Shown here piece after piece: positions 2,852 through 35,748 of a stretch of DNA of 38,721 bases (positions are counted from its first letter, which is position 1; every line of letters begins with the position of its first letter). A program made the translations under genes and the position numbers. Origin of the DNA: Muribaculaceae bacterium (GTDB lineage: Bacteria > Bacteroidota > Bacteroidia > Bacteroidales > Muribaculaceae); NCBI GenBank assembly GCA_022510445.1, contig JAFLTN010000007.1, positions 1-38,721 of the forward strand, given 5' to 3'. A model generated the notes under the pieces. The model was not told the DNA's origin. It ran no database searches and worked only from the letters and a program-made list of their open reading frames with translations.

Positions 2852-3796
2852 TTATCTTTCAGCCCGCATCGGATTTGAAAGGAAATCCTCATAGGCCATT
2901 TTGATTCCGTCGGCCAACTCTGTGGAATATGTCCATCCAAGACTCTTTGCCTTGCTTACATCGAGCAATTTACGGGGAGTTCCGTTGGGTCGGGTAGTAT
3001 CCCACCCTATTTTACCTTTATATCCGACAGTTTTCGCTACCATTTCTGTCAGTTCCTTAATGGTAATCTCCTTCCCGGTTCCGGCATTTACTGTTTCATT
3101 CCCGGAATAATTATTCATCAGGAAAACACATAAATTTGCCAAATCATCAACATACATAAATTCTCTGAAAGGAGAACCATCACCCCAACATATCACTTCA
3201 GGTAATTCCTGTTCTTTTGCTTCATGAAATCTTCTGATAAGAGCGGGCAAAACATGGGAATGTTCAGGATGGTAATTATCATTAGGACCGTATAGATTAG
3301 TAGGCATCACAGAAATAAAATCTGTTCCATACTGACGGTTAAGATATTCACAATATTTAAGTCCTGAAATTTTTGCAAGAGCATAAGCTTCATTAGTCTG
3401 TTCCAAAGAGGAAGTCAACAGACATGATTCCGGCATCGGCTGAGGGGCAAGACGAGGATAAATGCAAGAAGATCCGAGAAATTCCAATTTTTTTACCCCG
3501 TTTTTCCAGGCTGCATTAATCACATTCATTTCCAGCATCATATTGACATACATAAAATCGGCCGGAGCATTAGAATTCGCAATTATACCACCCACTTTCG
3601 CTGCAGCAAGAAACACATATTCCGGTTTTTCTCTCTGAAAGAAAAGATTAACCGCTGCCTGATCAGTCAAATCAAGTTCAGAATGAGTCCGTGTTACGAG
3701 ATTATGATAACCCTGGCGTTTCAATTCACGCACAATCGCAGAACCGACCATACCCTTATGGCCGGCTACATATATTTTAGAAGATTTTTCCATCAT
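2852..3796 (-). CDS. fcl: GDP-L-fucose synthase (GDP-4-keto-6-deoxymannose 3,5-epimerase-4-reductase)
   Basis: Fcl makes GDP-L-fucose from the Gmd product by 3,5-epimerisation and NADPH-dependent 4-reduction in the cytoplasm. The protein is 314 aa, full length for the family. Visible landmarks are the Rossmann motif [11 protein letters not shown] near residue 12, SSCIYP near 110 (catalytic Ser), and YALAK near 135 (the Y-x3-K pair). The family-typical [29 protein letters not shown] segment follows. It is the last gene of the operon from ugd, 50 bp after the aminotransferase and two genes downstream of gmd, which supplies its substrate. No clear terminator was found behind it. Confidence 0.96.
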
Positions 3797-3846: not shown

Positions 3847-5133
3847 TTAACAGATAGACGACTTAATTGTCTCTACAATATATTTAACTTCATCTTTGCC
3901 AACAAAGGGTCCTGCAGGCAGGCAAATACCCTTTCGAAATAAGTCGACACTAACACCGTTTACATATGCCGGATTATTCTTATAAACGGGCTGAACATGC
4001 ATCGGCTTCCATAAAGGCCGGGATTCTATATTTGCTTTATCAAGGGCTACGCGCAACGCTTCCACATTAGGATCTGGTTCACAGTCAGTATGAGTGGTAC
4101 CGGCAGGATTAATTAAACCGGCGGCTCCCCCCACTGCCTCTTTCACCGGACTCAAATAAACCCGGTCTTGCCCTTTTATCTTAAGATCGGGATTAAGTAA
4201 AGCGGTGCATAACCAGAAATTAGAGTCATAATCAATTCCCGGGCTAATGTGCATGGTTATCCCCTCGACATCCCTCAACAACTCACAATATAACTGTTGC
4301 ACCATTTTATGATGCGCAATATGTTCATTAAGAATGGTCATCTGCCCTCGGCCTATTCCCGCACAAATATTGCTCATCCTATAATTGTAGCCTATTTTTT
4401 CATGCTGGTAATAGGGATAACCCTCCCGAGCCTGAGTGGCATAAAATAATATCTCCTTTTTTTCTTTGAGACTTCCGCATATAAGGGCTCCCCCTCCGGA
4501 TGTTGTAATCATTTTATTCCCATTGAAACTTAAGACACCATATTTTCCGAAGGTTCCGAGAACCCTACCTTTATATCTGGAACCGAAACCTTCGGCGGCA
4601 TCTTCAATAACAGGAATATTATATTTTCGGGCCACCTCCATAATTTCTTCAATCTTATAAGGCATCCCATAGAGAGCTACCGGTATAATTGCCTTAGGCT
4701 TTTTACCGGTTTGCAGAATTCGGTCTTCAATCGCTTTTTCGAGGAGTAAAGGATCCATATTCCAGGTTTCTTCCTCAGAATCTACAAATACAGGAATCGC
4801 ACCAAGATAAGATACTGGATGAGCTGAAGCACAGAACGTAAAACTCTGCACGATAACTTCATCTCCCGGGCCAACACCACAGGCCACCAATGCCAGATGG
4901 ACTGCTGCCGTGCCTGCAGACAGAGCAACTACAGACTTAGGGGGACATAATTCTGATTCAGTATGGATTTCGGGATTCAGAGATTTTTCTGAATTCACAA
5001 ATTTTTCCAAATCCTTTTCAAATCCATCAACATTAGGCCCGAGAGGAACTACCCAATTATCTGCGAAAGCCTCCTTTACGAAATCAATTTCTTTTCCCGA
5101 CAAGTGAGGCATGCAAAGAATGATACGCTCCAT
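3847..5133 (-). CDS. DegT/DnrJ/EryC1/StrS-family PLP aminotransferase (sugar 4-aminotransferase type)
   Basis: This is a fold-type I PLP enzyme of the family that aminates nucleotide-linked keto sugars. The internal-aldimine lysine is in SFNGNKMITTSGGG (near residue 206), a form close to PglE-type transaminases. SAGTAAVHLAL (phosphate cup) and PVIEDAAEGFGS (PLP Asp) are also clear. At 428 aa it is longer than the usual ~370-390. The extra length is a charged segment near residues 52-66 (LNPEIHTESELCPPKS) and a Gly/Pro-rich segment near 330-355. It lies between gmd and fcl, so a plausible substrate is GDP-4-keto-6-deoxymannose (giving a perosamine-like sugar). A UDP-4-keto sugar is equally possible. 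Substrate assignment is inference. Confidence 0.88.
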   Translation of the reverse strand: MERIILCMPHLSGKEIDFVKEAFADNWVVPLGPNVDGFEKDLEKFVNSEKSLNPEIHTESELCPPKSVVALSAGTAAVHLALVACGVGPGDEVIVQSFTFCASAHPVSYLGAIPVFVDSEEETWNMDPLLLEKAIEDRILQTGKKPKAIIPVALYGMPYKIEEIMEVARKYNIPVIEDAAEGFGSRYKGRVLGTFGKYGVLSFNGNKMITTSGGGALICGSLKEKKEILFYATQAREGYPYYQHEKIGYNYRMSNICAGIGRGQMTILNEHIAHHKMVQQLYCELLRDVEGITMHISPGIDYDSNFWLCTALLNPDLKIKGQDRVYLSPVKEAVGGAAGLINPAGTTHTDCEPDPNVEALRVALDKANIESRPLWKPMHVQPVYKNNPAYVNGVSVDLFRKGICLPAGPFVGKDEVKYIVETIKSSIC

Positions 5134-5165: not shown

Positions 5166-6257
5166 TTATTTGACGATGCCTTTTTCAAGATATTCAGCAA
5201 GATTTCGGGTGACGTGCTCACCGGCACGTTCCACTGCCACCTTTGCCATATCTGCCTCAACCATTAATTTTACCAGCTCTTCAAATGAAGTTTTTGCCGT
5301 AGGATCCCATCCAAGTTTCTTTTTGGCCTTTGTCGGATCGCCCAGAAGATTCACAACATCAGTGGGACGATAGAAATCCGGAGAAACTTCTATCAAAACC
5401 TTACCCGTTTTAGCATCCTTCCCGACCTCGTTTGCCCCTTCGCCCTCGAAAATGAGATCTATGCCTGCATGTTTGAAAGCCAAAAGACAGAATTCTCTTA
5501 CAGAATGTTGCTGACCGGTAGCAATCACATAATCATCGGGATAATCCTGTTGAAGAATAAGCCACATACATTCCACATAATCTTTGGCATAGCCCCAGTC
5601 GCGCATCGAAGATAAATTACCCAGATAAAGCTTTTCCTGCTTTCCTTGCGCTATACGTGCGGCGGCAAGAGTGATCTTGCGGGTAACGAATGTTTCGCCT
5701 CGTCTTTCGGATTCATGATTAAATAAAATTCCTGAGCATGCAAACATATTGTAGGCCTCACGGTATTCCTTTACAATCCAGAAACCATACAATTTGGCAA
5801 CAGCATAGGGTGAATAAGGATGAAACGGCGTGTCTTCGTTTTGAGGCACTGCCTCTACCTTTCCGTATAGTTCTGAAGTGGATGCCTGATAGAACCGACA
5901 GGTTTCAGCCAAGCCACATTGCCTGATACCTTCAAGGATACGCAATACTCCTGTGGCATCCACATCGGCAGTGAACTCCGGGGAATCAAAACTTACCTGC
6001 ACATGGCTTTGAGCCGCCAGATTATATACTTCGTCAGGCCTTACCTTGTTAAGCACCTGAATAATCGACATTGAATCACCAAGATCGGCATAATGAAGAT
6101 GAAATTTAGGATTATTCTCAAGATGGGCAATGCGTTCGCGGAAATCGACTGAAGAACGTCTTATGGTGCCATGTACATCGTATCCTTTCTCCAAAAGGAA
6201 TTCAGCGAGGAAAGATCCGTCCTGTCCGGTCACTCCGGTTATTAATGCTCTTTTCAT
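5166..6257 (-). CDS. gmd: GDP-mannose 4,6-dehydratase
   Basis: Gmd converts GDP-D-mannose to GDP-4-keto-6-deoxy-D-mannose, the branch point to GDP-L-fucose, rhamnose or perosamine. The 363-aa protein shows the Rossmann motif [15 protein letters not shown] at the N-terminus and the IRRSS NADP-binding signature. Family landmarks [12 protein letters not shown] (near residue 126) and [11 protein letters not shown] (Y-x3-K, near 150) follow, then the long [18 protein letters not shown] segment characteristic of Gmd. It follows the nucleotidyltransferase-kinase gene by 25 bp and precedes the aminotransferase by 32 bp in the same operon. Length and all catalytic motifs are normal. Confidence 0.97.
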
Positions 6258-6282: not shown

Positions 6283-7440
6283 TCACATACGTCTTATCTT
6301 GATGGGAATTGCAGAATCAGGGATATTAACCGAATCATGGACAATCAACAAATGTCCCCCTCCTCCTGCACCGGTCATTTTCCAGGCTAAAGCTCCTTCT
6401 TCTTTAACTTTCCTTATATGTTGTTCAACCCCTTCCTGCATCATAGCAGGGAACATTGCTACCTGAGCTTCAAATGAATCTTGATAACCCTTTACGAAAG
6501 AGTCCAGATCTCTGCTCATAATGGCGTCCCAGGTTCTTTCCGCAGCATCTGTAAGTTTCCTTACTTTCTCAGCCGTGACATCTTTCCCTTCTACCACTGA
6601 TACGCCCGGCCTACGAGGAAACATCGGTACAAGAGCAAGATGCGATTCAAGCCAATCGAGAATCTGACTATTATGGACTCTTTCAATCTTTACGGGCCAA
6701 TAACCACCATCATAGAAATGGCGGGACAGCCCTGACAAACAGATGCCAATTGCATCCTGTGCACCAGAAACATGACCCTTATTATCTTCAGGATCATTTT
6801 CAAAACAGAAAAGAATCCTTGCCAACATTTCCTCATTGAATTCCGGCAACTGATATTTCCATATGGTCTGTGCCGCTTTTCTTGTTGAAGTAGACATTCC
6901 ACCCCTTTCCATGAATTCCATGGTGGGTTCTATCGAGGCTGTAATTGCCCATCCTGCTCCATGTTCCGAAACATATGGTTGATCAATCCAGGTTCCTGCT
7001 ATATCAATACGGTATGGAATTTGCGATTTAACTTCTTTTCGGAGAGATGTGGTTGACCGTGGATCCAATCCCGGTTCAGGCAATCTGTTCAATTCTATAT
7101 ATTCAATATTTCTTGCCTTACAGAAATTCCGTTTTTCTTCCGAGCCTCCATCACTGTTCACAATAAAGATATCCGGATTAACTTTTTCGATTGTTTCGAT
7201 GAAATCCATCATACCGGAACCTCTGTTGATAAACGCATCCTTTACATATCGTATGGCCTTGACCATATAAAGGCGTTCATTTTCTTTATTAATTGTTTTT
7301 CTGCCTTTTAACTCTTCTATAGTGGCATCAGACCCTATTCCTACATATAAATCTCCATATTGAGACGCCTCACGGAAGAACGCAACATGACCGGAATGAA
7401 GCATGTCGTAACAACCTGAAACAAAAACTTTCTTTGTCAT
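6283..7440 (-). CDS. Cytidylyltransferase-like / GHMP kinase-like fusion, putative sugar-1-phosphate-forming and activating enzyme
   Basis: This is a 385-aa two-domain protein. Residues 1-~135 are a nucleotidyltransferase of the RfaE/TagD type, with [14 protein letters not shown] (HxGH motif, residues 15-18), GIGSD and a closing STTSLR motif. Residues ~140-385 resemble a compact GHMP kinase: [15 protein letters not shown] at the start, GAQDA in the middle and [13 protein letters not shown] near the C-terminus. A standard ATP-loop GLGSS is not obvious; [11 protein letters not shown] may be its equivalent. I chose the start at 7440, not the ORF-track 7470, because it overlaps the fucP stop as ATGA. 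The neighbours FucP, Gmd and Fcl suggest it activates fucose or a related sugar, an alternative to Fkp. A heptose-type substrate is also possible. Confidence 0.75.
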
Positions 7441-8711
7441 TTTTCCGCACTTTCTGTGGTGATCTTGCAATAACTATATCTTGCGAATGCAAATATAATA
7501 ACAAAACAAATAGCTGGAATAAAGAATGAGAAAGAAATGCCCCGGATATCGGATACCAATGCCTGCAAGGGAGTTATCAAGGCTCCTCCAAGTATGGCCA
7601 TAATCAATCCTGAGGCTCCTATTTTGGTGTATCTTCCCTCCACATTGTTTAATGCTATCCCATAAATAGTAGGGAACATCAGCGACATCACAGCCGATAT
7701 TGCGATAAGACAAATTATAGAGAAAACACCACTGAAAAAAATTACAGCCATCGTGAGCATTATTCCACCGATAGATGCCCACAAAAGCAAGAGAGAGGGC
7801 TTATAATATTTCATGAGCCAGGTAAAAAGAAAACGGCAGCCAGTGAAAGCTATGATAGAATAGAGAAAAATCAGAGATGCGTCTTTTTCCAGGCTATTGG
7901 TCTCTGACATTACATATCTTATGGTAAAAGACCATACACAGGTCTGGACACCAACATAAAAAAACTGGGCAATTACTCCATAACGATAATTTCTATCTTT
8001 CCAAAGCACTCTGAAACATTCAGAGAGTGGGGCTGATCTGTCAGTATCTTTATCTTTGGGCATCTTTGCAAAAAAGATTATCAGGAAAAGTATTAATAAA
8101 ACACACCCGATAATCACATAAGTCCCGGAAATAGCATTCAATTCATGAGCCTGAACCTCCCTTAAGGCCTGACTGCTCATATTCTCCCTCTCTAAGGCAT
8201 CGGCAGAATGTAGCTCCGAAAGAATAAAATGACGACTCAGAAGTATTCCACAGATAGCTCCTATTGGGTTGAAGGTCTGTGCAATGTTTAAACGTCTTGT
8301 TGATGATTCCTTCGGACCCATTGAAAGGATATAGGGATTGGCTGTAGTCTCCAGGATTGAACAACCTCCGGCCATGACATAGATTGCCACTAAGAAAAAT
8401 GGATAGGATGCCGCCAAACCTGCAGGATAAAAAAGAAGAGTTCCTGCAGCATAAAGAATAAGACCTGTCAGGATTCCTGCTTTGTAGGTAAACTTCATTA
8501 TAAAAAGAGCTGCAGGCAAAGCGAAACAAAAATAAGCCCCATAAAATGCAAACTGCACAAGAGATGTCTGGAGATCTGACATTGACATTATTCTCTTGAA
8601 AGCAGCCAGCAAAGTATCGTTCATGTTGTTAGCCACTCCCCATAGAAGAAAGAGAAGACTGACAAGAAAGAAAGGCAGAAAAAGATTTCTTGGTATCGTT
8701 TTCAAGGTCAT
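7437..8711 (-). CDS. fucP: FucP-type L-fucose:H+ symporter, major facilitator superfamily
   Basis: This 424-aa integral membrane protein has about 12 hydrophobic segments and fits the sugar:H+ symporter branch of the MFS. The first helix carries LLWGVANNMND, with D32 at the position of the functionally essential FucP aspartate. The fourth-helix region carries GGCSILETTANPY, with E121 matching the essential glutamate. PTIYGIALNNV in the C-terminal half is also typical. It should import L-fucose or a similar hexose across the inner membrane. It sits 15 bp after ugd and overlaps the next gene by 4 nt (ATGA), so translation of importer and fusion enzyme is likely coupled. Substrate specificity is inferred from family and context. 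Confidence 0.88.
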   Translation of the reverse strand: MTLKTIPRNLFLPFFLVSLLFLLWGVANNMNDTLLAAFKRIMSMSDLQTSLVQFAFYGAYFCFALPAALFIMKFTYKAGILTGLILYAAGTLLFYPAGLAASYPFFLVAIYVMAGGCSILETTANPYILSMGPKESSTRRLNIAQTFNPIGAICGILLSRHFILSELHSADALERENMSSQALREVQAHELNAISGTYVIIGCVLLILFLIIFFAKMPKDKDTDRSAPLSECFRVLWKDRNYRYGVIAQFFYVGVQTCVWSFTIRYVMSETNSLEKDASLIFLYSIIAFTGCRFLFTWLMKYYKPSLLLLWASIGGIMLTMAVIFFSGVFSIICLIAISAVMSLMFPTIYGIALNNVEGRYTKIGASGLIMAILGGALITPLQALVSDIRGISFSFFIPAICFVIIFAFARYSYCKITTESAEK

Positions 8712-22240: not shown

Positions 22241-23686
22241 TCAAAGTATCGGGGAAACAAGTCTTAATAAAGATTCGAGAAAACGATGAGATAATGGTCT
22301 TTTCCTCCATTTCTCCTTCTGAAGCTTTTCACACTGTTTCATATCTTCATAGAAGATATCCCTCATTTTACTATTTACTTCCGAGTCCAGAATAAACAGA
22401 TTACATTCAAAATTGTTTTCAAAACTTCTGAAATCAAAATTTGTGGAACCGGCTGTCACCAGGTCATCATCTATTATCATTGCTTTAGCATGCAACATAC
22501 CGGGCTGATAAAGGTAAATCTTGATTCCGGCAGCAAGGCATTGAGTTATATAGGAAAAAGAGGCATAATGCAGCAAAAGGCTGTCAGTATGAGCCGGCAT
22601 CATTATCCTCACATCAATATTCGAAAGAGCCGCCGCCTGGAGAGCGTTAAAGAGGGCATCTGTCGGAAGGAAATATGGTGTCTGAATCCAGATCAGACGT
22701 TTCGCAGAAGTTATTGCCTTAAGGAACATCAAGGAAAGATTATCCCATTTACTAATGGGACCCCCAGTGACTAACTGGATACCTCTTTCATTTTTTTGTT
22801 CCTCTTTCGTGTTTTGCAGCGATGGAATATAGGGTTCCTTTTCTTGAAAATTCCAATCAACAAAAAACGAATATGTCAAAGATTCTACTATGTCGCCTTT
22901 TACCCTGAAATGGGTATCTCGCCACACTTCAGAGGATGGCCCCTGACCATAAGCATAGCGGTCTGCGATATTCATTCCTCCGATATATCCGGTTTCCTCG
23001 TCAATTACAACTATTTTACGGTGGTTTCTCCAATTTATCCTATTGGCAAACTGGGGAAAATTAACTCTGAAAAAAGGACGCACTTCAACTCCCCCCTCTC
23101 TCATTTTTTTAAAAAATTTATTACTTGCCGAGAAACTTCCTACATGATCATAGATAACCTTGACATCAATCCCCTCTCTGGCTTTTCGTATCAATATATC
23201 AGAAATTTCGCTACCAATTTTATCGTCAAGGAAAATGTAGTATTGAAGATAAATAGATCTGACTGCTTTATTCAGATCAATTTTTAAAGATTCAAACTTT
23301 GAAGGACCATCTGTAAAGATGTTGATTTCATTATTATAGGTCAAGGGGTAACCTCCAACTTGTGTACCTAATATTACAAGGTTTTTCTGCTTTTTATTAA
23401 GATTTGTATCCTGCAGTTTAACTCTGGAGGTCTGGACAGAATGTTGAAGGCGCCTCCGGTTTGCTTGAGAGAGCATTTCGCCCCTCATGCTCCTTCCGAA
23501 AAAAAGATAAAAGATTAAACCGATACCGGGAAGAAAAATCAAAGCAATCACCCATGAAAGAGCACGGATAGGATTCCTGTTTTCCCGTAGCACAAGCACA
23601 ACGGATGTAATTACAATAACAAAATACAGAATCACAACCAGAAAAATAAACCAGCTGCTTAAATGTATCGTTTCAGGTATGTGCAT
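22241..23686 (-). CDS. cls: Cardiolipin synthase (phospholipase D family)
   Basis: The enzyme makes cardiolipin by phosphatidyl transfer between two phosphatidylglycerol molecules at the inner membrane. The 481-aa protein has two N-terminal membrane helices (residues ~10-35 and ~40-65) with the PLDc_N linker RNPIRALSWVIALIFLPGIGLIFY. Two HKD catalytic motifs follow: NHRKIVVIDEETGYIGGMN near residue 222 and LHAKAMIIDDDLVTAGSTNFD near 398. Length and topology match ClsA-type enzymes. It is apparently monocistronic and lies just downstream of the ribosomal operon terminator in the same orientation. Confidence 0.95.
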   Translation of the reverse strand: MHIPETIHLSSWFIFLVVILYFVIVITSVVLVLRENRNPIRALSWVIALIFLPGIGLIFYLFFGRSMRGEMLSQANRRRLQHSVQTSRVKLQDTNLNKKQKNLVILGTQVGGYPLTYNNEINIFTDGPSKFESLKIDLNKAVRSIYLQYYIFLDDKIGSEISDILIRKAREGIDVKVIYDHVGSFSASNKFFKKMREGGVEVRPFFRVNFPQFANRINWRNHRKIVVIDEETGYIGGMNIADRYAYGQGPSSEVWRDTHFRVKGDIVESLTYSFFVDWNFQEKEPYIPSLQNTKEEQKNERGIQLVTGGPISKWDNLSLMFLKAITSAKRLIWIQTPYFLPTDALFNALQAAALSNIDVRIMMPAHTDSLLLHYASFSYITQCLAAGIKIYLYQPGMLHAKAMIIDDDLVTAGSTNFDFRSFENNFECNLFILDSEVNSKMRDIFYEDMKQCEKLQKEKWRKRPLSHRFLESLLRLVSPIL

Positions 23687-23733
23687 TTATATTCTGACAA
23701 TAGTAATACAACGCTAATTTATAAAAAATAGAC

Positions 23734-23767
23734 TAAAAAAGCAAAGCGACAGCCATTGGCCGTCGCT
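23734..23767 (-). terminator. Terminator of the ribosomal protein superoperon
   Basis: AGCGAC-A-GCC / GGC-C-GTCGCT forms a strong stem with one mismatch and a 3-nt loop. In the minus direction it is followed by TTTGCTTTTTTAG. It lies 24 bp after the rplQ stop codon. Confidence 0.85.
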
Positions 23768-23791
23768 CTATTATTTTTGAACATTAGAAAC

Positions 23792-24337
23792 TTATTCTTT
23801 TGTTTCTTCTCCTGCAGTTTCAGCTTCCGGAGCAGGAGTTTCTTCCTTAACTTCCTGAACCTGAGCTTCAGCCTTAACAGCTTCCTCTGCTTTCGGAGCA
23901 GCATCAGTGTTAGTTTTCTTTTTACGGCTTCTGCGGGTGGTTTTCTCTTTCTTGGCCCCTTTAGCTTCAAGCATGATATCATTGAAATCAACAAGTTCAA
24001 TCATTGCCATTTCAGCATTGTCACCAAGACGGTGAACTGTTTTGAGGATTCTTATATATCCTCCGGGACGTTCAGCAACTTTTTCGGCAACCACGCCAAA
24101 AAGTTCCTTAACAGCTTCTTTGTTTTGCAGATAACTAAAAACAAGACGCCTGTTGGCCATATTGTCTTTCTTACAACGTGTGATAAGCGGCTCTGCGAAT
24201 ACACGTAAGGCTTTAGCCTTTGCCAAAGTCGTAAAGATTCTCTTATGGAGAATGAGAGAAATAGTGAGGTTAGTTAAAAGCGCCTCACGATGAGCCTTCT
24301 TACGACTTAGGTGGTTGAATTTTTTATTATGTCTCAT
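23792..24337 (-). CDS. rplQ: 50S ribosomal protein L17
   Basis: The L17 core (residues 1-~125, [24 protein letters not shown]) is complete and lines the exit side of the large subunit. The 181-aa protein carries an extra C-terminal tail of about 55 residues. The tail starts basic ([12 protein letters not shown]) and becomes Ala/Glu-rich and acidic ([17 protein letters not shown]). Such extensions are common in Bacteroidetes L17 and are probably disordered. It is the last gene of the operon, 6 bp after rpoA. Confidence 0.97.
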
Positions 24338-24343
24338 CGTCGG

Positions 24344-25342
24344 TTATTCTTTGTCTAATTTATATTTTGAAATGTCCATTCCGAAACTCAGATTGTGATT
24401 TGCTAAGAGTTCATCAAGTTCCGTGAGAGATTTCTTGCCGAAGTTCCTAAATTTCAACAAGTCGTTTTTATTGAAGACCACGAGCTCAGCAAGAGTCTCC
24501 ACTTCAGCACTTTTCAAGCAATTCAAGGCTCTCACTGAGAGATCCATGTCGGTAAGCTTGCTCTTCAGGAGCTGACGCATATGGAGCACTTCTTCATCAA
24601 ATTCATCAACTTCGTTTTCAGTTGGAGTTTCAATGGTTATCTTCTCGTCACTGAAAAGCATAAAGTGATGAATCAGGATTTTGGAAGCTTCTTTTAGGGC
24701 ATCTTGGGGCAGAATTGATCCGTCGGTCAAAACTTCAATTATGAGTTTTTCATAATCGGTCTTTTGTTCCACGCGATAATTCTCAACTGTATACCTCACA
24801 TTCTTGATTGGAGTATAAATGGAATCAATCGCAATGAGCGTCGGATCAGAGTCGCCTAACATCTCGCGGTTTTCATCAGCAGGAACCCAGCCTCTTCCCT
24901 TGTTAACGGTAAATTCCATACGGAAACCGGCTTTTGGGTCAAGACGGCAGATTTCAAGTTCAGGATTCAAGACTTCAAAAGCTGTAAGCACTTTACCAAG
25001 ATCTCCGGCACGAACGATATCAGTTCCGGAAACTTCAATTACACCTTTTTCAGAGTCCTGGTCGGAAACTTTCTGTTTAAACCTTACCTGTTTGAGGTTC
25101 AGAATGATATTTGTTACATCCTGTCGCACTCCGGGTATAGTGTCAAGCTCATGATTAACGCCATCGATTTTAATTGAACAGATGGCATAACCACCGAGCG
25201 ACGACAGCAATATCCTACGCAAGGCATTGCCTATGGTCTGCCCATACCCCGGCTCCAAAGGCCTGAACTCGAATTTCCCGAACTTGTTGTCCGCTTCGAG
25301 CATTATCACTTTGTCGGGTTTCTGAAATGCTAATATTGGCAT
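24344..25342 (-). CDS. rpoA: DNA-directed RNA polymerase subunit alpha
   Basis: The alpha subunit nucleates RNA polymerase assembly. The 332-aa protein has the N-terminal dimerisation domain with [24 protein letters not shown], then a linker. The C-terminal HhH domain ([40 protein letters not shown]) contacts activators and upstream DNA. Length is normal. It lies 16 bp after rpsD and 6 bp before rplQ. Confidence 0.99.
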
Positions 25343-25358
25343 GGGTTTCTATTGTTTT

Positions 25359-25964
25359 TTATTTAGAATACAATTCGACGATCAACTGTTCCTTAATATT
25401 CTCAGGGATATCTTCACGCTGAGGAACATGGAGGAATTTTCCGCCTTTTACGCTCTCATCCCATTCAATCCAGGGATATTTGCTATGATTGAAGCCTGCC
25501 AATGCATCGGCAATCACTTCAAGAGATTTTGATTTTTCTCTCACTGCCACTACATCTCCCGGTTTAACCTGGTAAGACGGGATATTGACTACTTTTCCGT
25601 TTACAGTGACATGTTTGTGAAGAACAATCTGACGAGCTGCAGGACGTGTCGGGGCGATACCAAGACGATAAACTACATTATCAAGTCTGCTTTCGAGGAG
25701 CTGAAGCAAAACTTCACCCGTAATACCTTTAGTTCTGGCTGCCTTATCGAAAAGGTTTCTGAACTGACGTTCGAGAACCCCATACATATATTTGGCTTTC
25801 TGTTTTTCACGGAGCTGGGTTCCATATTCAGAAACTTTTCTCCTGCGGTTTTGGCCATGCTGACCCGGTGGATAATTTCTTTTAGCAAGTATTTTATCCT
25901 CTCCGAAGATAGCTTCGCCGAATTTTCGTGCAATTTTGGTCTTTGGACCTGTATATCTTGCCAT
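25359..25964 (-). CDS. rpsD: 30S ribosomal protein S4
   Basis: S4 is a primary 16S rRNA binder and, in many bacteria, the repressor of its own operon. The 201-aa protein starts [20 protein letters not shown] and lacks the N-terminal zinc-binding cysteines found in the C+ form. The S4 RNA-binding domain follows ([31 protein letters not shown]). A 122-bp gap, the largest in the cluster, separates it from rpsK and carries an inverted repeat. Confidence 0.99.
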
Positions 25965-26021
25965 TGTTTTGTGTGTTTAATTAAAGTGGGCCATATTTAT
26001 CCTTTTCCTTAGCGCAGCCGC

Positions 26022-26050
26022 GATCATCGAGAGAAAGGTGTGTGATGATC
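26022..26050 (-). promoter_or_regulatory. Inverted repeat in the rpsK-rpsD spacer (possible leader structure)
   Basis: GATCATC and GATGATC pair perfectly across a 15-nt loop in the 122-bp spacer before rpsD. Position suggests an mRNA structure acting on rpsD translation, perhaps an S4 autoregulatory site. The role is inferred only from place and shape. Confidence 0.35.
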
Positions 26051-26086
26051 TTTCGCATTCAGAAAAGGCGCTCCTGGCTTTTATTA

Positions 26087-26476
26087 TTATACTCTTCTTC
26101 TTTTAGGGGGACGACATCCATTATGTGGAAGCGGAGTAACATCAACTATCTCTGTTACTTCAATACCGGCACCATGCACTGTGCGGATTGCACTTTCACG
26201 TCCGTTGCCCGGTCCTTTCACATATGCCTTAACCTTTCTCAGGCCGAGGTCATAAGCGACTTTTGCACAATCCTGAGCTGCCATCTGAGCTGCATAAGGA
26301 GTGTTTTTCTTTGAGCCTCTGAAGCCCATCTTGCCTGCTGAACTCCAGGAGATAACCTGTCCTTCGCTATTGGCAAGACACACGATGATGTTGTTGAAAG
26401 AGCTATGTACATGAAGCTGACCGCTTGCGTCAACTTTGACATTCCTCTTTTTTGCTGCGACTGTCTTTTTTGCCAT
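26087..26476 (-). CDS. rpsK: 30S ribosomal protein S11
   Basis: S11 forms part of the 30S platform beside the E site. The 129-aa protein shows the core [21 protein letters not shown] and the highly conserved C-terminus [17 protein letters not shown]. The basic N-terminal stretch [15 protein letters not shown] is usual for the group. It lies 9 bp after rpsM. Confidence 0.99.
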
Positions 26477-26485
26477 ACTTTAATT

Positions 26486-26866
26486 TTATTTAGTAGCTTT
26501 CTTCTTATTTGCAACCGTCTTTTTACGTCCCTTTCTGGTACGTGCGTTGTTCTTTGTGCTCTGGCCACGAACCGGCAAACCGATACGATGTCTGATTCCA
26601 CGGTAACAACCAATGTCCATAAGGCGTTTAATGTTCAATTGAATTTCTGAGCGGAGGTCTCCTTCTACTTTATATTCATTCTGAATAACCTCACGCACTG
26701 CTGCAGCTTCAGCATCTGTCCAATCCTGAACTTTTGTGTCAAGATTAACTCCCGCCTTGTTCAAGATTGTCTTAGCAGCACTTCTGCCTATTCCATAAAT
26801 ATAGGTCAAGGCAATTTCTCCTCTTTTGTTTTGTGGCAAATCAACGCCAACTATTCTTACTGCCAT
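26486..26866 (-). CDS. rpsM: 30S ribosomal protein S13
   Basis: S13 sits in the 30S head and forms intersubunit bridges. The 126-aa protein starts [27 protein letters not shown] (helix-two-turn-helix region). It contains the signature [26 protein letters not shown] and ends in a basic tail ([12 protein letters not shown]). A 39-bp gap with a possible internal promoter element separates it from rpmJ. Confidence 0.99.
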
Positions 26867-26891
26867 ATCTGGTTTCTAATGTTTTATTTTG

Positions 26892-26899
26892 CAAAGGTA
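26892..26899 (-). promoter_or_regulatory. Candidate internal promoter element (TACCTTTG) before rpsM
   Basis: TACCTTTG on the minus strand matches the Bacteroidetes -7 consensus and lies 26 bp before the rpsM ATG, in a gap longer than most in the operon. No TTTG is found at the ideal distance upstream. Confidence 0.4.
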
Positions 26900-26905
26900 A
26901 TGAAA

Positions 26906-27022
26906 TTATCCTTGACGTTGTTTAAATTTAGGGTTCTTCTTGTTAATTACGTATAACCTGCCTTTGCGGCGCACTATCTTACAGTCTGCGCTGCGCTTTT
27001 TAATTGATGCTCTTACTTTCAT
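26906..27022 (-). CDS. rpmJ: 50S ribosomal protein L36
   Basis: This 38-aa gene is too short for the ORF track. The reading frame gives [20 protein letters not shown] and ends [12 protein letters not shown], a clear L36. Only one cysteine remains (C14); the other metal ligands of the zinc-binding form are absent, so this is the zinc-independent C- form. It lies 14 bp after infA and 39 bp before rpsM, the classical position. Confidence 0.97.
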
Positions 27023-27036
27023 TATTTTGTTGTTTT

Positions 27037-27255
27037 TTATTTATATCTGAAAGCTATTCTTCCTTTGCTGAGATCATAGGGGCTCATTTCCACCCTTACC
27101 TTATCTCCGGGAAGTATCTTGATATAGTGCATCCTCATTTTGCCTGAAATATGGGCTGTTATCTCGTGCCCGTTGCTCAATTCAACTTTGAACATCGCAT
27201 TTGATAAGGCTTCGAGGATCACTCCGTCTTGTTCTATTGCTGCTTGTTTTGCCAT
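27037..27255 (-). CDS. infA: Translation initiation factor IF-1
   Basis: IF-1 is a 72-aa single OB-fold protein that binds the 30S A site during initiation. [41 protein letters not shown] and the C-terminal [15 protein letters not shown] are typical. Length is exactly that of the family. It lies 22 bp after map. Confidence 0.99.
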
Positions 27256-27277
27256 TTTATTTTACTGTCTTTTATTT

Positions 27278-28075
27278 TTATCGATTTAATGTTTCAACAG
27301 CTGTCTTTGCTAAAGACTCATCTATATAATTAAATGTGGTGAGAATTTCGGGGTCCCCCTCCGTTATTAAAATCGTATGCTCGAAATGAGCTGAGGGTTT
27401 TCTGTCTCTTGTTCGACATTCCCAGCCGTTTTCTTCAAAAACAACTTTCTTCCCACCAAGATTAATCATAGGTTCTATCGCGATACACATCCCCGGTTTT
27501 AAAATTGGTCCGATTCCCCTTCTTCCATAATTGGGAACTTCAGGGTCTTCGTGCATATTCTTTCCAATACCATGTCCGCACATCTCCCGGACAACATTAT
27601 ATCCTGCTTTTTCGCAATATGTCTGGATTGTATTGGAAATATCACCGATTCTTTTACCAGGAAGGGCAACCGATATACCTTTATATAGGCTTTCTTTAGT
27701 CGTTCTGAGTAAATCGAGAGTCTTCTCATCTACTTTACCCACGGTGAACGTATAGCAACTGTCACCATGAAAGCCGTTGAGCTCAACTACACAATCAGTC
27801 CCTATTATGTCTCCCTCTCTCAGAGCATAGCCGGAAGGGAATCCATGTACCACTGTTTCGTTAACCTCAATACAGAGAGTTCCGGGGAAACCATGATAAC
27901 CAAGACAAGCGGGTTTACCCCCGTTGTCGAGGATAAACTCTCTTGCCACATTATCAAGTTTGCGGGTTGTGATTCCGGGTTTAACCCAAGAAGCCACTTC
28001 TCCCAGCGTGCGACTTACGAGGTCACATGCCTTACGCATTCCTTCTATCTCTTCAGCTGTCTTAATATAGATCAT
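27278..28075 (-). CDS. map: Type I methionine aminopeptidase
   Basis: The enzyme removes the initiator methionine from nascent proteins. The 265-aa M24 peptidase shows the expected metal ligands: the two aspartates in GTDCVVELNGFHGDSC, the histidine in MCGHGIGKNMHEDP, and the glutamates in AIEPMI and HFEHTILITE. YHGFPGTLCIEVNETVVHG, containing the conserved substrate-binding histidine, is present. It lies 19 bp after secY; the adk gene found between them in many bacteria is absent. Confidence 0.98.
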   Translation of the reverse strand: MIYIKTAEEIEGMRKACDLVSRTLGEVASWVKPGITTRKLDNVAREFILDNGGKPACLGYHGFPGTLCIEVNETVVHGFPSGYALREGDIIGTDCVVELNGFHGDSCYTFTVGKVDEKTLDLLRTTKESLYKGISVALPGKRIGDISNTIQTYCEKAGYNVVREMCGHGIGKNMHEDPEVPNYGRRGIGPILKPGMCIAIEPMINLGGKKVVFEENGWECRTRDRKPSAHFEHTILITEGDPEILTTFNYIDESLAKTAVETLNR

Positions 28076-28094
28076 TAATCAATAATAATGACAG

Positions 28095-29432
28095 TTAGAA
28101 AGCTCCGCTACCTGTTGTGCGTCCCTTAATACGGCCCTCTTTCATAAGACCGTCATAATGGCGCATAAGGAGATGGCCTTCAATAATTCGAAGTGTGTCA
28201 AGGATAACACCCACCATAATCAAAAGTGAAGTACCTCCGAAGAAAGCTGCGAACTGACGATTAAGCCCTACAACATGTGCAATTGCAGGTAATATAGCAA
28301 CAATACCTAAGAAAATGGAACCCGGCAATGTGATACGAGACATAATTGTGTCAAGATATTCAACAGTCGGTTTTCCCGGTTTTACACCCGGGATAAATCC
28401 ATTGTTCCTCTTCATGTCTTCAGCCATCTGAGCCGGTCTAACTGTGATTGCAGTGTAGAAGTAGGTGAAGGCCACGATCATGATGAAATATACGAGGTTA
28501 TACCAGAATCCGTAAAGGTCGGTCATCGCTCCGAAAAATCCTGAATGATCCGTTGTGAAACCAACCATAGTCACAGGTATGAACATGATAGCCTGAGCAA
28601 AGATGATAGGCATCACACCGGCAGCATTTACCTTCAGTGGAATATACTGGCGTGCACCACCATATTGACGGTTACCTTGGATTCTTTTAGCATATTGCAC
28701 CGGTACTTTTCTTGTACCCTGTACCAGGAGCACAGCACCTGCAATTACTGCAACCAGAATGATAAGTTCAACAAGGAATATAACGAGACCTCCTCCTGCA
28801 GAGTTCATGAGGCGTCCGGTGAATTCCTGTATAACCGCTTCCGGGAAACGAGCCATAATACCGATAAGGATTATAAAAGAGATACCGTTGCCAATACCTT
28901 TCTGGTCAATCCTTTCTCCAAGCCACATAATGAACATGGAGCCGGCAGCCAAGACAATAGTCATAAAGACTACGGTCCAGAAATTCATTTCTATTATGCC
29001 GCCTGCAGCCCTGACCTGATACTGGAGATTAAGCAGATAAGCCGGTCCCTGTACAAGCAGGATAAGAACAGTGAGATAACGTGTGTATTGATTAAGTTTC
29101 ATACGTCCGCTCTCACCCTCTCTCTGCATTTTCTGGAAAGCCGGTAGAACCATTCCTAAAAGCTGAATCACGATCGACGCCGTGATGTAAGGCATGATTC
29201 CAAGGGCAAATATCGAAGCCTGAGAGAATGCTCCTCCGGAGAACATGTCCAGAAGCTGCATCAATCCGTCGCTCGTGAAATTTTTCAGAGCCATAAGATC
29301 ATCGGGATTGATGCCCGGAAGGACAACATAACAACCGAAACGGTACACTATCACAAGAAGGATAGTGATACCGAGTCGTTTGCGTAGGTCATCGACACTC
29401 CAGATATTTTTTACTGTTTGTGTAAATCCCAT
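28095..29432 (-). CDS. secY: Preprotein translocase subunit SecY
   Basis: SecY is the channel subunit of the inner-membrane Sec translocon. The 445-aa protein has about ten transmembrane segments. The plug/TM2 region reads MFSGGAFSQASIFALGIMPYITASIVIQLL and a cytoplasmic loop has MQREGESGRMKLNQYTRY. EDMKRNNGFIPGVKPGKPTVEYLD and the C-terminal MRHYDGLMKEGRIKGR are typical. Length is normal. It lies 10 bp after rplO and 19 bp before map. Confidence 0.99.
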   Translation of the reverse strand: MGFTQTVKNIWSVDDLRKRLGITILLVIVYRFGCYVVLPGINPDDLMALKNFTSDGLMQLLDMFSGGAFSQASIFALGIMPYITASIVIQLLGMVLPAFQKMQREGESGRMKLNQYTRYLTVLILLVQGPAYLLNLQYQVRAAGGIIEMNFWTVVFMTIVLAAGSMFIMWLGERIDQKGIGNGISFIILIGIMARFPEAVIQEFTGRLMNSAGGGLVIFLVELIILVAVIAGAVLLVQGTRKVPVQYAKRIQGNRQYGGARQYIPLKVNAAGVMPIIFAQAIMFIPVTMVGFTTDHSGFFGAMTDLYGFWYNLVYFIMIVAFTYFYTAITVRPAQMAEDMKRNNGFIPGVKPGKPTVEYLDTIMSRITLPGSIFLGIVAILPAIAHVVGLNRQFAAFFGGTSLLIMVGVILDTLRIIEGHLLMRHYDGLMKEGRIKGRTTGSGAF

Positions 29433-29442
29433 TTTAAATTAT

Positions 29443-29889
29443 TTAGTTTTTAGATACTGATCCTCCTGCAGCCGTAATTGCATCTTCGGCTTTCTTAGAG
29501 AACGCATCAGCATGAACTTCTATTGCTTTAGTAACAGCACCGTTACCAAGAACCTTTACAAGACATCTTTTGGGTACAAGACCGGCCTGTCTCATATCAT
29601 CGACAGTGATCTTTGCCAAATTCTGGGCTTCAGCGAGAGCCTGGAGAGCATCAAGGTTGATGGCTTTATATTCCACACGGTTGATATTTTTGAAACCGAA
29701 TTTGGGAACTCTACGCTGCAACGGCATCTGACCGCCTTCAAAACCGATCTTGCGTTTGTAGCCGGAACGTGATTTAGCGCCCTTATGACCTCTTGTAGAT
29801 GTTCCGCCGGTACCGGCTCCCGGACCGCGGCCTACTCTTTTGTTCTTTTTGTTGCTGCCGGGTGCCGGCTTAAGATTATGTAATTCCAT
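29443..29889 (-). CDS. rplO: 50S ribosomal protein L15
   Basis: L15 is a late-assembly large-subunit protein. From MELHNLKPAPGSNKKNKRVGRG the product is 148 aa and matches the family N-terminus. An alternative ATG five codons earlier (29904) overlaps the rpmD stop as TAATG and could also be used. The signature GGTSTRGHKGAKSRSG is present. It lies 10 bp before secY. Confidence 0.98.
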   Translation of the reverse strand: MELHNLKPAPGSNKKNKRVGRGPGAGTGGTSTRGHKGAKSRSGYKRKIGFEGGQMPLQRRVPKFGFKNINRVEYKAINLDALQALAEAQNLAKITVDDMRQAGLVPKRCLVKVLGNGAVTKAIEVHADAFSKKAEDAITAAGGSVSKN

Positions 29890-29903
29890 TGTGTGTTCTT
29901 TCA

Positions 29904-30083
29904 TTAAAGTTTAGTCACTTCCACAAGATGATGCACAGCCTTGATCATTCCTCTGATTGAGGGACAATCTTCATGCACCACTGTATGATTCATCTTCCTG
30001 AGACCGAGGGCATCGAGAGTGCGTTTCTGCACTGCCGGGCAATTGATTCGGCTCTTAATCTGTTTGATTGCTATCTGTGCCAT
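29904..30083 (-). CDS. rpmD: 50S ribosomal protein L30
   Basis: This 59-aa gene is missing from the ORF track because of its size. The frame reads MAQIAIKQIKSRINCPAVQK, then LDALGLRKMNHTVVHED and RGMIKAVHHLVEV, the short prokaryotic L30. It sits between rpsE (11 bp) and rplO, the expected position in the spc operon. Confidence 0.97.
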   Translation of the reverse strand: MAQIAIKQIKSRINCPAVQKRTLDALGLRKMNHTVVHEDCPSIRGMIKAVHHLVEVTKL

Positions 30084-30094
30084 TTCTGTTTCAA

Positions 30095-30613
30095 TTAGCC
30101 GTTAAACACTTTTTCTACCGATATACCTCTACCCTTTGCGATCTCAGCCGGGCTTCTCATCTCACCAAGCGCTTCAATAGTCGCCTTCACAAGGTTGTGA
30201 GGGTTGGATGAACCTTTACTCTTGGCAAGCACGTCTTTAATGCCGGCACTTTCAAGAACCGCACGCATAGCACCACCGGCTTTTACTCCGGTACCTTCTG
30301 ACGCTGGCTTCAGGAATATTCTTGAGCCGCCGAATTTAGCGTTTTGTTCGTGAGGGATAGTACCGTTATGAACCGGAACTCTGATAAGGTTTTTCTTAGC
30401 AGCTTCAACGCCTTTTGCTATAGCTGCTGTCACTTCATTAGCTTTTCCGAGTCCCCAACCGATAACACCGTCTTCATTTCCAACAACTACAATTGCTGCA
30501 AAACTGAAGGCACGTCCACCTTTAGTTACTTTAGTAACCCTATTGATGGCAACCAACCGGTCTTTCAGTTCCAAGTCGTTTGTTGACTTTACTCTATTAT
30601 TTCTTTTTGCCAT
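30095..30613 (-). CDS. rpsE: 30S ribosomal protein S5
   Basis: S5 contributes to decoding accuracy and mRNA unwinding. The 172-aa protein has the double-stranded-RNA-binding-like N-terminal domain ([39 protein letters not shown]). The C-terminal part has [26 protein letters not shown]. It lies 7 bp after rplR and 11 bp before rpmD. Confidence 0.99.
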
Positions 30614-30620
30614 GACCTAA

Positions 30621-30962
30621 TTAAAATTTAAGACCGGCCTCGCGTGCTGCATCGGCCAATGATTTAACCCTGCCATGAAAGAGATAACCGTTTCTGTCAA
30701 AGACAACCTGAGTTATGCCTTTATCTATGGCTTTCTTTGCAATATCTGCACCCACTTTGGCTGCAATTTCAGTCTTGGTGCCACCTTCCATACCTTTAGA
30801 AGATGAAGCGACCAATGTATTTCCGGCCAAGTCGTCGATTATCTGTACATAAATGGCCTTATTGCTACGGAAAACGCTCATACGCGGACGTTCGGCAGTA
30901 CCCGAAATCTTACCGCGGATGCGAGTTTTGATTTTATTTCTTCTTGCTATCTTAGATACCAT
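30621..30962 (-). CDS. rplR: 50S ribosomal protein L18
   Basis: L18 binds 5S rRNA with L5. The 113-aa protein contains [27 protein letters not shown] and ends [27 protein letters not shown], the conserved family C-terminus. It lies 17 bp after rplF. Confidence 0.99.
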
Positions 30963-30979
30963 AGTCTTCCTTATTTTAA

Positions 30980-31534
30980 TTATTTAGCATTAGCCGACTT
31001 GCCGGACTTACGTCTGATAACTTCACCGACAAACTTGATACCTTTACCCTTATAAGGCTCAGGCTTACGCAATGAGCGGATCTTTGCACACACTTGTCCT
31101 AAAAGTTGTTTATCCGAACTTTCGAGGATAATAAGCGGATTTTTGTTCCTCTCAGATTTGGCTTCTACTTTTACTTCCGGCGGAAGCTTGATATAGATAG
31201 CATGTGAATAGCCTAATGAAAGTTCGAGAACCTGACCGGTAGCATTAGCTCTGTAACCTACACCAACAAGCTCCAATTCTTTCTTGTAGCCTTCTGAAAC
31301 ACCAACCACCATATTGTGAATCAATGCTCTGTAGAGGCCATGCATGGCTCTGTTCTCTCTGGAATCGTCCGGACGTTTGATTTCCAGATGATTACCTTCC
31401 TGTTCGATAGTGATGGCAGGATTAATTTCCTGAGACAACACGCCTTTCGGACCTTTTACTGTCACAACGTTGTCTTTTACCTGTACTGTTACGCCTGCAG
31501 GTATCTCTATGGGTGCTTTACCTATTCTTGACAT
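30980..31534 (-). CDS. rplF: 50S ribosomal protein L6
   Basis: L6 lies near the factor-binding centre of the 50S subunit. The 184-aa protein has the duplicated alpha/beta fold, with [17 protein letters not shown] at the start and the signature [23 protein letters not shown] near the end. It lies 18 bp after rpsH. Confidence 0.99.
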
Positions 31535-31552
31535 ATCGATTACCTCCTTTGA

Positions 31553-31951
31553 TTAATAAACGTAACATAAAACTTCACCACCGATCTTGCGTGCCTTAGC
31601 TTCCTTATTGGTCATTACTCCCTGGGGAGTTGTAAGGATTGCGATACCGAGGCCATTCAAAACACGAGGCATATCCTTGTAGCCGGTGTATTGACGTAAT
31701 CCCGGTCGGGAAACACGCTGTAAGTCTTTGATTGCGCTTACATTGTCAACAGGGTCATATTTAAGCGCTATTTTGATTGTACCCGATGGAGTGGGACCTT
31801 CAATGAACTTATAGTTCAAGATGTAACCCTGTTCAAAGAGGATCTTAGTGATCTCTTTCTTCATTTTCGATGACGGGATGTCAACCACACGGTGTCCCGC
31901 GCGGATGGCATTCCTCACTCTTGTCAAATAATCTGCAATTGGATCTGTCAT
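31553..31951 (-). CDS. rpsH: 30S ribosomal protein S8
   Basis: S8 is a primary 16S rRNA binder and the usual autoregulator of the spc operon. The 132-aa protein starts MTDPIADYLTRVRNAIRAGH and ends GIAILTTPQGVMTNKEAKARKIGGEVLCYVY, the conserved RNA-binding end. A 63-bp AT-rich gap to rpsN precedes it. Confidence 0.99.
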   Translation of the reverse strand: MTDPIADYLTRVRNAIRAGHRVVDIPSSKMKKEITKILFEQGYILNYKFIEGPTPSGTIKIALKYDPVDNVSAIKDLQRVSRPGLRQYTGYKDMPRVLNGLGIAILTTPQGVMTNKEAKARKIGGEVLCYVY

Positions 31952-32014
31952 CTTTTTTGATTGTTAAATTGATTCAGATTTTCCGAACAATATTTAATTC
32001 TCTCTATATAAATT

Positions 32015-32317
32015 TTACCAGCTTGCTTTCTTAACACCGGGGATAAGACCGGCAGAAGCCATTTCGCGGAACACTATCCTGGAGATACCGAATTGTCTCA
32101 TATATCCCTTGGGACGTCCTGTCATTGAGCAACGGTTGTGAAGACGCACTTTAGAAGCATTTTTTGGAAGCTTCTGCAACTTGGCCAATGCTTCATAATC
32201 GATATTGCCGTCGGCATCAGCAAGGGCAGCTTTCTTTAAGGCAGCTTTCTTTGCGGCGTATTTCTCAACCATTTTCCGGCGCTTCACTTCGCGCGCCTTC
32301 ATTGATTCCTTTGCCAT
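32015..32317 (-). CDS. rpsN: 30S ribosomal protein S14 (zinc-independent form)
   Basis: The 100-aa protein is the long S14 form without the CxxC zinc ribbon. It starts [24 protein letters not shown] and has [21 protein letters not shown] before the conserved [10 protein letters not shown] end. Only one cysteine is left in the former ribbon region. It lies 5 bp after rplE. Confidence 0.99.
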
Positions 32318-32322
32318 ATCTA

Positions 32323-32871
32323 TTAATTTTCTCTTTTGAATGGGAGACCGAATTTCTTAAGGAGTGCGAATCCTTCTTCATCAGTGGGAGCTGATGTTAC
32401 GAAGGTGATGTTCATACCCTGAAGTTTCGGAACATTATCAATATTAATTTCCGGGAAGATTATCTGTTCGGTGATACCGAGAGTATAGTTACCTCTTCCG
32501 TCAAGTTTAGAATTAATACCCTTGAAGTCACGGATACGAGGGAGAGCCACTCTTACGAGACGTTCCAGGAATTCATACATTTTATCCTTACGGAGAGTCA
32601 CCATGGCACCGATCGGCATTTTCTTTCTTAACTTAAAGTTAGAAATATCCTTCTTGGAAAGAGTAGGAACTGCCTTTTGGCCGGTGATCGCAGTGAGTTC
32701 ATTGAGAGCAGTCTCAATAATCTTCTTATCCTGGGTAGCACCGCCAAGACCCTGGTTGATAACAATCTTCTCCAGCTTAGGAACCTGCATCACGCTGGAA
32801 TAATTAAATTCCTTCTGAAGTTCGGGAACAATGTTCTCCTTATATTCTTTTTCGAGTGTTGTCTTGCTCAT
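32323..32871 (-). CDS. rplE: 50S ribosomal protein L5
   Basis: L5 binds 5S rRNA and contacts S13 at the subunit interface. The 182-aa protein shows [40 protein letters not shown] and [15 protein letters not shown]. Its ATG overlaps the rplX stop by 4 nt (ATGA), which suggests translational coupling. Confidence 0.99.
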
Positions 32872-33191
32872 GACTTAATCTCCTCTCCTGATTTCTTTGA
32901 ATAACGTACAAGTTTCCCGGCATCATTACGTCTTCTACCTATACGGGTAGGCTTACCGGTCTTGGGGTCAACCACATTTAGATTAGAGATGTCAACCGGG
33001 GCTTCCATCTTTACAATACCACCCTGAGGATGTTTTGCATTAGGTTTCATGCTCTTTGAGATGATATTGACACCCTCTACAAGTGCCTTATGCTTTTTAA
33101 CAAGCATTTCAAGCACTCTACCGGTCTTACCTTTGTCGTCACCGGTATTGACATAGACTATGTCGCCCTTTCTGATATGAAATTTTGCCAT
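32868..33191 (-). CDS. rplX: 50S ribosomal protein L24
   Basis: L24 starts 50S assembly and sits near the tunnel exit. From [27 protein letters not shown] (KOW motif) the protein is 107 aa. The ORF-track start at 33242 would run into rplN and has no family support, so I use 33191. It overlaps rplE by 4 nt. Confidence 0.98.
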
Positions 33192-33213
33192 TTTTCTGTT
33201 TCTTTTTAAAAGA

Positions 33214-33579
33214 TTAAAGAACTTCAGGCGCGAGCGAAACAATCTTCATGTTGGTGTTACGAAGCTCGCGAGCCACAGGACCAAAAATACGGGTACCGCG
33301 GATTTCACCGGCATTATTTAATAACACACAAGCATTGTCGTCAAAACGGATATAACTACCGTCAGGGCGGCGCACCTCTTTCTTAGTACGAACTACTACA
33401 GCCTTGGAAACTGTACCTTTCTTAACATCAGATGAAGGAATGGTGCTCTTCACTGTCACCACTATAATATCACCTACTGATGCATATCTGCGGCCTGTAC
33501 CGCCAAGTACATGAATACAGAGAACCTCTTTGGCTCCACTGTTGTCTGCTACCGTGAGTCGTGATTCAGCCTGTATCAT
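33214..33579 (-). CDS. rplN: 50S ribosomal protein L14
   Basis: L14 forms an intersubunit bridge and contacts L19. The 121-aa protein starts [27 protein letters not shown] and ends [24 protein letters not shown], both family hallmarks. Only 2 bp separate it from rpsQ. Confidence 0.99.
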
Positions 33580-33581
33580 AA

Positions 33582-33842
33582 TTACTTAACTTTTTCGATT
33601 ATTTCTACGAGTCTCCATCTCTTTGTTTTGCTCAGAGGACGGGTCTCCATTAATCTCACTGTATCACCGATTGAACATTCGTTCTTTTCATCGTGGGCGT
33701 GATACTTCTTTGTTTTATTTACAAACTTGCCGTAGATCGGGTGTTTTTCTTTCCACTTGATCTCGACTGTGATGGTCTTGTCGCACTTATTGCTTGATAC
33801 GACACCAATCCTCTCTTTTCTCAAATGACGTTTTTCTTCCAT
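33582..33842 (-). CDS. rpsQ: 30S ribosomal protein S17
   Basis: S17 is an OB-fold primary binder of the 16S 5' domain. The 86-aa protein contains [33 protein letters not shown] and [26 protein letters not shown]. It lies 19 bp after rpmC. Confidence 0.99.
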
Positions 33843-33861
33843 CTTTTTCTTAAATTAAGGA

Positions 33862-34083
33862 TTAATTCTCTGCGGGAGCTGAAGCTTTCTGAGCTTCGAG
33901 TTCCTTTAAGCGCAACACAGTCTTCAAGCGGGCAATTTGACGGCGATCTTTTGTAATTTTCGCCGGATTGTCGATGGGAGAGATCGCGTGCGCTACTTTC
34001 AATTCACGATAAGCCTTCTCGCTCGCCTCTATCTGGGCGCGCAATTCCGGAATGCTTAATTCCTTGATTTCTTCCTTTTTCAT
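33862..34083 (-). CDS. rpmC: 50S ribosomal protein L29
   Basis: L29 is a small helical-hairpin protein near the tunnel exit. The 73-aa product starts MKKEEIKELSIPELRAQIEASEKAYRELKV and contains KITKDRRQIARLKTVLRLKELE. It ends with a short Ala-rich tail. It lies 28 bp after rplP. Confidence 0.98.
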   Translation of the reverse strand: MKKEEIKELSIPELRAQIEASEKAYRELKVAHAISPIDNPAKITKDRRQIARLKTVLRLKELEAQKASAPAEN

Positions 34084-34111
34084 TGTTTAAATATCTAATT
34101 GATAATCTCTT

Positions 34112-34543
34112 TTATACGTTCTGGCTTGCGTCGTAGTCACGTCTAACCACAAATTTAGTAGTGACCGGAAGCTTCTGAGCGGCAAGTCTCAACGCCTCTT
34201 TAGCGATATCGTATGGAACACCTTCCACTTCAATGAGAATACGTCCCGGAGTTACAGGTGCTACGAAACCTTCAGGATTACCTTTACCTTTACCCATGCG
34301 GACTTCTGCCGGTTTCTTTGTAATGGGCTTGTCAGGGAAAATTCTGATCCAGATCTGGCCCTGACGTTGCATATGTCTTGTGACTGCTACACGGGCTGCT
34401 TCAATCTGACGACCTGTAATCCATTTTGATTCGAGGGTCTTAATGCCGAAAGAACCGAACGCAAGCTGGTGACCCCTCTGGGCCTCCCCTTTCATACGTC
34501 CCTTTTGCGAACGACGATATTTGGTTTTCTTTGGTTGTAACAT
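34112..34543 (-). CDS. rplP: 50S ribosomal protein L16
   Basis: L16 helps position the A-site tRNA. The 143-aa protein starts [24 protein letters not shown] and contains [39 protein letters not shown], the family signature. It lies 14 bp after rpsC. Confidence 0.99.
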
Positions 34544-34557
34544 TCTTCTAAGTCAAA

Positions 34558-35289: not shown

Positions 35290-35302
35290 CTTTTAAAGCT
35301 TA

Positions 35303-35698: not shown

Positions 35699-35748
35699 TG
35701 TAAATTACTTTCTGTTTTTTAGACTTTAATTATCGCGTTTTGACGCCA

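Follow-up and report, generated by a model that had tools for sequence, protein, structure and literature searches.

GDP-fucose salvage by gut Bacteroidales is commonly taken to mean Fkp, the L-fucokinase/GDP-fucose pyrophosphorylase of B. fragilis; in HldE, the heptose 7-phosphate kinase/heptose 1-phosphate adenylyltransferase, the kinase is of the ribokinase type and lies at the N-terminus. Smith et al. favour one fusion event as the source of every known FKP, and the trees of this 2025 survey of FKP evolution were built from FUK, GFPP and FKP models (PMC12732313). A term search of that paper found no mention of GHMP fusions or of nucleotidyl- or cytidylyltransferase fusions, and the open-access literature searched for the architecture reported here or for fucose salvage in these bacteria yielded no description of it. 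The protein that we describe is, with a probability of roughly three in four, a compact two-function enzyme for fucose salvage that takes the place of Fkp.

Its gene lies in the window, by which we mean the whole 38,721-nucleotide stretch analysed, from a contig of a Muribaculaceae bacterium. It occupies positions 6283..7440 of the minus strand (ATG at 7440, stop at 6283-6285) and encodes, with no internal stops, a compact and putatively bifunctional protein of 385 aa in which an HxGH nucleotidyltransferase is fused to a GHMP-type sugar kinase. The preliminary description had read this frame as an HSGH nucleotidyltransferase joined to a compact GHMP-like domain, overlapping the stop codon of fucP and followed 25 bp later by gmd; the frame is intact, both folds are supported, and both junctions were confirmed from the frames. 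The TGA of fucP (7437..8711, L-fucose:H+ symporter; TIGR00885 437.6 bits, cut-off 280.4) overlaps the ATG of the fusion gene (ATGA), and a gap of 25 bp separates the fusion-gene stop from the start, at 6257, of gmd (5166..6257, GDP-mannose 4,6-dehydratase; TIGR01472 514 bits, above cut-off). Farther on are a DegT/LegC-like aminotransferase recognized by profile matches (3847..5133) and fcl (2852..3796, GDP-L-fucose synthase; NF047922 477 bits, slightly below the 500-bit cut-off), and all five genes run in one direction on the minus strand. An amino sugar might be made from the gmd product by the LegC-like aminotransferase. The region from 22244 to 38477 is ordinary chromosomal housekeeping sequence (ribosomal proteins, secY, map and rpoA among others).

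The linkage to fucose genes recurs elsewhere. Genes within 5 kb were counted at 86 non-redundant loci, all flanked on both sides by 5 kb or more of sequence: FucP was found at 37 loci, fcl at 32, gmd at 31, an L-fucose/L-rhamnose-type mutarotase at 26 and a manC-like gene at 9, the last two being searched with seeds from locus L150 that we take, from their sequence, to be a mutarotase and manC. At least one of these five genes was present at 64 of the 86 loci, and no tested fucose gene was nearby at the remaining 22. The gene order varies among the loci, which come from many families of the order, so the arrangement is not one inherited block. When 19 Fkp loci were treated similarly, gmd and fcl were found at none and FucP at one, where fucP lies directly upstream of Fkp (G090). 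Locus L150 contains a divergent copy of the fusion gene (L150:7982-9115, 39% identity) whose motif 3 has become SGSGGG and which adjoins FucP, the mutarotase and manC; the same genome also carries a copy with 49% identity (L151).

Fkp and the fusion protein are nearly mutually exclusive. Among 297 genomes of the same family, 46 have Fkp, 72 have the whole or a large part of the fusion protein, and one has both against 11.2 expected (Fisher p 2.2e-5, ancestry not fully corrected). In 295 order-wide genomes the counts are 24, 43 and zero (hypergeometric p 0.02, or 0.035 when six sister-clade genomes are left out, ancestry again not fully corrected). The two proteins also alternate within genera whose sizes are only partly known: Fkp and the fusion protein occur 6 and 16 times in genus g7 and 5 and 1 times in g3, never together, and 4 and 28 times in g9, once together. 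The only sampled genome with both, G105, has the cluster fcl-fusion-fucP-mutarotase-gmd (L165, G105:C89). FucI was found in 25 of the 72 genomes with the fusion protein, 36 of the 46 with Fkp and 10 of the 180 with neither; both proteins therefore mark fucose users. Neither Fkp nor FucI was detected in the genome of the window, absences that are provisional because this genome is 89.5% complete, and a GT11 fucosyltransferase is encoded on another of its contigs. Since FucP is present and the isomerase was not found, fucose that enters the cell lacks an evident way into the FucI pathway, and salvage is indicated.

Full-length homologues with 47-75% identity occur in many Bacteroidales, so the fusion is no chance event. 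The protein is frequent in this order, and in a sample of 297 genomes from across the phylum only three others had it. A plasmid- or phage-borne gene was rejected: a plasmid search gave no match to the fusion protein, and a phage search matched two phages in the nucleotidyltransferase domain only. A sister clade (L145, L146, L147, L148, L149, L152 and L153) has proteins of ~450 aa that combine these two domains with a similarly short spacing between GHMP motifs 1 and 2. Its motifs PRGSGLSTSTA and GRQDQ are nearer the canonical GHMP form, and its loci have no evident fucose genes nearby.

The N-terminal half (residues 1-137; 7030..7440, minus strand) matches PF01467, CTP_transf_like, with an E-value of 7e-14 (52.5 bits, gathering cut-off 21) and contains the HxGH motif as HSGH (residues 15-18; 7387..7398), in which S16, G17 and H18 are invariant and H15 nearly so in 57 homologues. 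In a PDB search the structural matches to this half were TagD, HldC and related HxGH enzymes, the nearest folds being those of TagD, HldC and a T. volcanium LPS-core protein. The score against TIGR02199 (HldE / RfaE domain II) is 54.9 bits, below the cut-off of 181.5 bits. The GFPP pyrophosphorylase domain of FKP is absent from this half and the PF01467 HxGH fold stands in its place, in agreement with the earlier view that the nucleotidyltransferase is unrelated to the pyrophosphorylase part of Fkp. A second motif, RSTT (residues 128-131; 7048..7059), resembles the RTxGISTT motif of cytidylyltransferases. In three homologues (L079, L080 and L081) the interdomain linker is longer and LLNSG(H/Q) replaces MLHSGH, so that HSGH is altered while the kinase half is intact. 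The HxGH enzymes of known specificity among the matches use CTP or ATP, and use of GTP on sugar phosphates is not known for any HxGH-type enzyme; fucose could thus be salvaged as proposed but released as CDP- or ADP-fucose. This product is unlikely, given that genes for GDP-sugar enzymes (manC, gmd and fcl) repeatedly lie nearby, that Fkp, a GDP-fucose maker, is apparently replaced, and that the genome encodes a GT11 enzyme.

The rest of the protein (residues 138-385; 6286..7029, minus strand) is a shortened GHMP kinase domain, assigned from its predicted structure and a PDB structure search. Profile scores are low: GHMP_kinases_C matches this half weakly (20.6 bits, cut-off 21), HddA (NF049969) scores 23 bits against a cut-off of 600, and FKP (NF009948), run against the whole protein, gives 20.1 bits in a C-terminal stretch only, with a curated cut-off of 721. 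Modelled alone, residues 138-385 reached a pLDDT of 92.9 and a pTM of 0.91, and the model matched WcbL (4usk; E 5e-11, query TM 0.78) and the FKP fucokinase (9iip; E 1.2e-8), with HddA, mevalonate kinase and galactokinase also among the fold matches; the GHMP fold anticipated for this half was thus found. By family profile, the nearest GHMP chains in the PDB are FKP (1.8e-9) and then HddA (3k85; 7.5e-7). The kinase half is thus related to Fkp, no GHMP chain in the PDB lying nearer to it by sequence profile than the Fkp fucokinase.

This kinship extends to the sugar site. In FKP, fucose is held by Arg592, Trp599, Asp601, Thr602, Gly759, Gln761 and Asp762 (Lin et al., PMC11982464). The counterparts of R592, W599 and D601 are R144, W151 and D153 in GHMP motif 1 (residues 142-155; 6976..7017, minus strand), and those of G759, Q761 and D762 are G226, Q228 and D229 in the catalytic-Asp segment (residues 211-229; 6754..6810, minus strand). 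Both proteins space these residues in the same way: R, +7 W, +9 D and G, +2 Q, +3 D. These six residues are invariant in 57 homologues, with Q154 at the position of FKP Thr602, and are among only 16 invariant columns in 70 GHMP domains that include the sister clade at 24-25% identity; the counterpart of FKP Glu751 is E214 or E218, the loop length being different. The R, D, Q and D of this site are common to the heptokinase WcbL (R13, D22, Q162 and D163; PMC4691232), so only W151 is fucokinase-like, and its position is G in HddA homologues from genomes of the same family. A protein of the same design could act on another sugar (D-arabinose, a heptose or mannose), just as heptose is handled by HldE or by HddA together with a partner transferase: the nucleotidyltransferase domain resembles HldE domain II and HldC, WcbL is the top fold match of the kinase half, and Fkp itself also accepts D-arabinose (PMC12732313). 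We regard another sugar as improbable, as the fucokinase-pocket residue W151 does not vary in this family whereas HddA has G, the scores fall under the HddA and HldE cut-offs, and the loci are linked to fucP, mutarotase, gmd and fcl. A plain HldE or HddA is ruled out by the scores, the fold and the W/G position.

The kinase half differs from known GHMP kinases in the segment between motifs 1 and 2. Motif 2, the phosphate loop RGGMSTSTR (residues 179-187; 6880..6906, minus strand), lies 35 residues beyond motif 1, compared with 45 residues in the sister clade, 99-100 in HddA and 121 in Fkp; about 65-85 residues are thus missing. The spacing was taken from the motifs because a global hhalign alignment of the kinase half against Fkp paired motifs 1 and 3 correctly and went wrong between them. 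Motif 3 (residues 352-362; 6355..6387, minus strand) was identified by a profile match and homologue conservation. The preliminary description was right that the kinase half is short and that its ATP loop is non-canonical, since the phosphate loop is kept in an altered form that departs from PxGxGLGSS, but the partial degeneracy that it suggested is unlikely: dozens of homologues keep the motifs unchanged or almost so, which, together with the intact frames, rules out a decaying gene. The adenine pocket of IspE, a GHMP kinase, is formed mainly by residues 53-85, between motif 1 (9-14) and motif 2 (87-98) (PMC2655357). The corresponding segment appears to be largely gone from the fusion protein, so the phosphoryl donor would be held differently or would be a different one, and ATP-dependent kinase activity is not assured. 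It is possible, though rather doubtful, that the protein represents a new GHMP sugar-kinase branch lacking the usual adenine pocket, in which the neighbouring nucleotidyltransferase domain holds the donor, or the donor is something other than ATP, combined with an HxGH-type guanylyltransferase for sugar 1-phosphate. The missing adenine-holding region would also suit a GHMP half that merely senses or binds fucose or fucose 1-phosphate, leaving an active nucleotidyltransferase to use a phosphate made by another enzyme, but this reading is improbable, as the catalytic Asp, the Arg and key phosphate-loop residues, which a pure sensor does not need, are invariant or nearly so in 70 sequences.

We therefore return to a bifunctional fucose-salvage enzyme. 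The preliminary description had proposed a compact salvage enzyme for the FucP substrate, and that proposal is supported by the GHMP fold, the conserved sugar and catalytic residues, the repeated presence nearby of fucP, mutarotase, gmd, fcl and manC, and the pattern with Fkp, which is undetected in this genome and nearly excluded across genomes. For the kinase and nucleotidyl-transfer steps, with fucose as substrate and GTP as nucleotide, we infer the following route. L-fucose would be imported by FucP, and its anomers would be interconverted by the mutarotase where present. The C-terminal GHMP domain would then phosphorylate C1 to give L-fucose 1-phosphate, with D229 as the base and the sugar surrounded by R144, W151, D153 and Q228. 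By transferring a nucleotidyl group, most probably GMP from GTP, the N-terminal HSGH domain would make GDP-L-fucose, which would enter the same pool as that formed de novo by way of gmd and fcl and would feed fucosyltransferases. If this is true, many gut species scored as lacking fucose salvage do have it, and the same two-step enzyme was invented a second time with a different transferase half. An enzyme of 385 aa might also be a handy tool for making GDP-fucose, a costly compound, and the shortened kinase half would put to the test what minimum of the GHMP fold suffices for a kinase.

Among known systems, TagD, a glycerol-3-phosphate cytidylyltransferase, shares the fold and HxGH motif of the N-terminal domain, but it is a stand-alone enzyme using CTP and glycerol phosphate, whereas the domain described here is joined to a kinase half. 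The heptose 1-kinases HddA and WcbL share the GHMP sugar-1-kinase fold and the R, D, Q and D residues, but they are single-domain proteins with a full-length motif 1-2 region and G where the fusion family has W. HldE likewise combines a kinase with an HxGH nucleotidyltransferase to make an NDP-sugar, and the fusion protein scores far below the HldE cut-off. Fkp is a close parallel: two activities are expected in one chain, transferase followed by kinase, the GHMP kinase half has the same fucose-binding residues, and the near mutual exclusion suggests the same role. Fkp differs in its size of about 950 aa, in a transferase half that is a GFPP domain with a beta-helix rather than an unrelated HxGH domain, and in about 85 residues between motifs 1 and 2 that the fusion protein lacks. 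The fusion protein most likely works like Fkp while standing outside the FKP family, because the defining pyrophosphorylase half is absent, and it would represent a fusion event separate from that of FKP.
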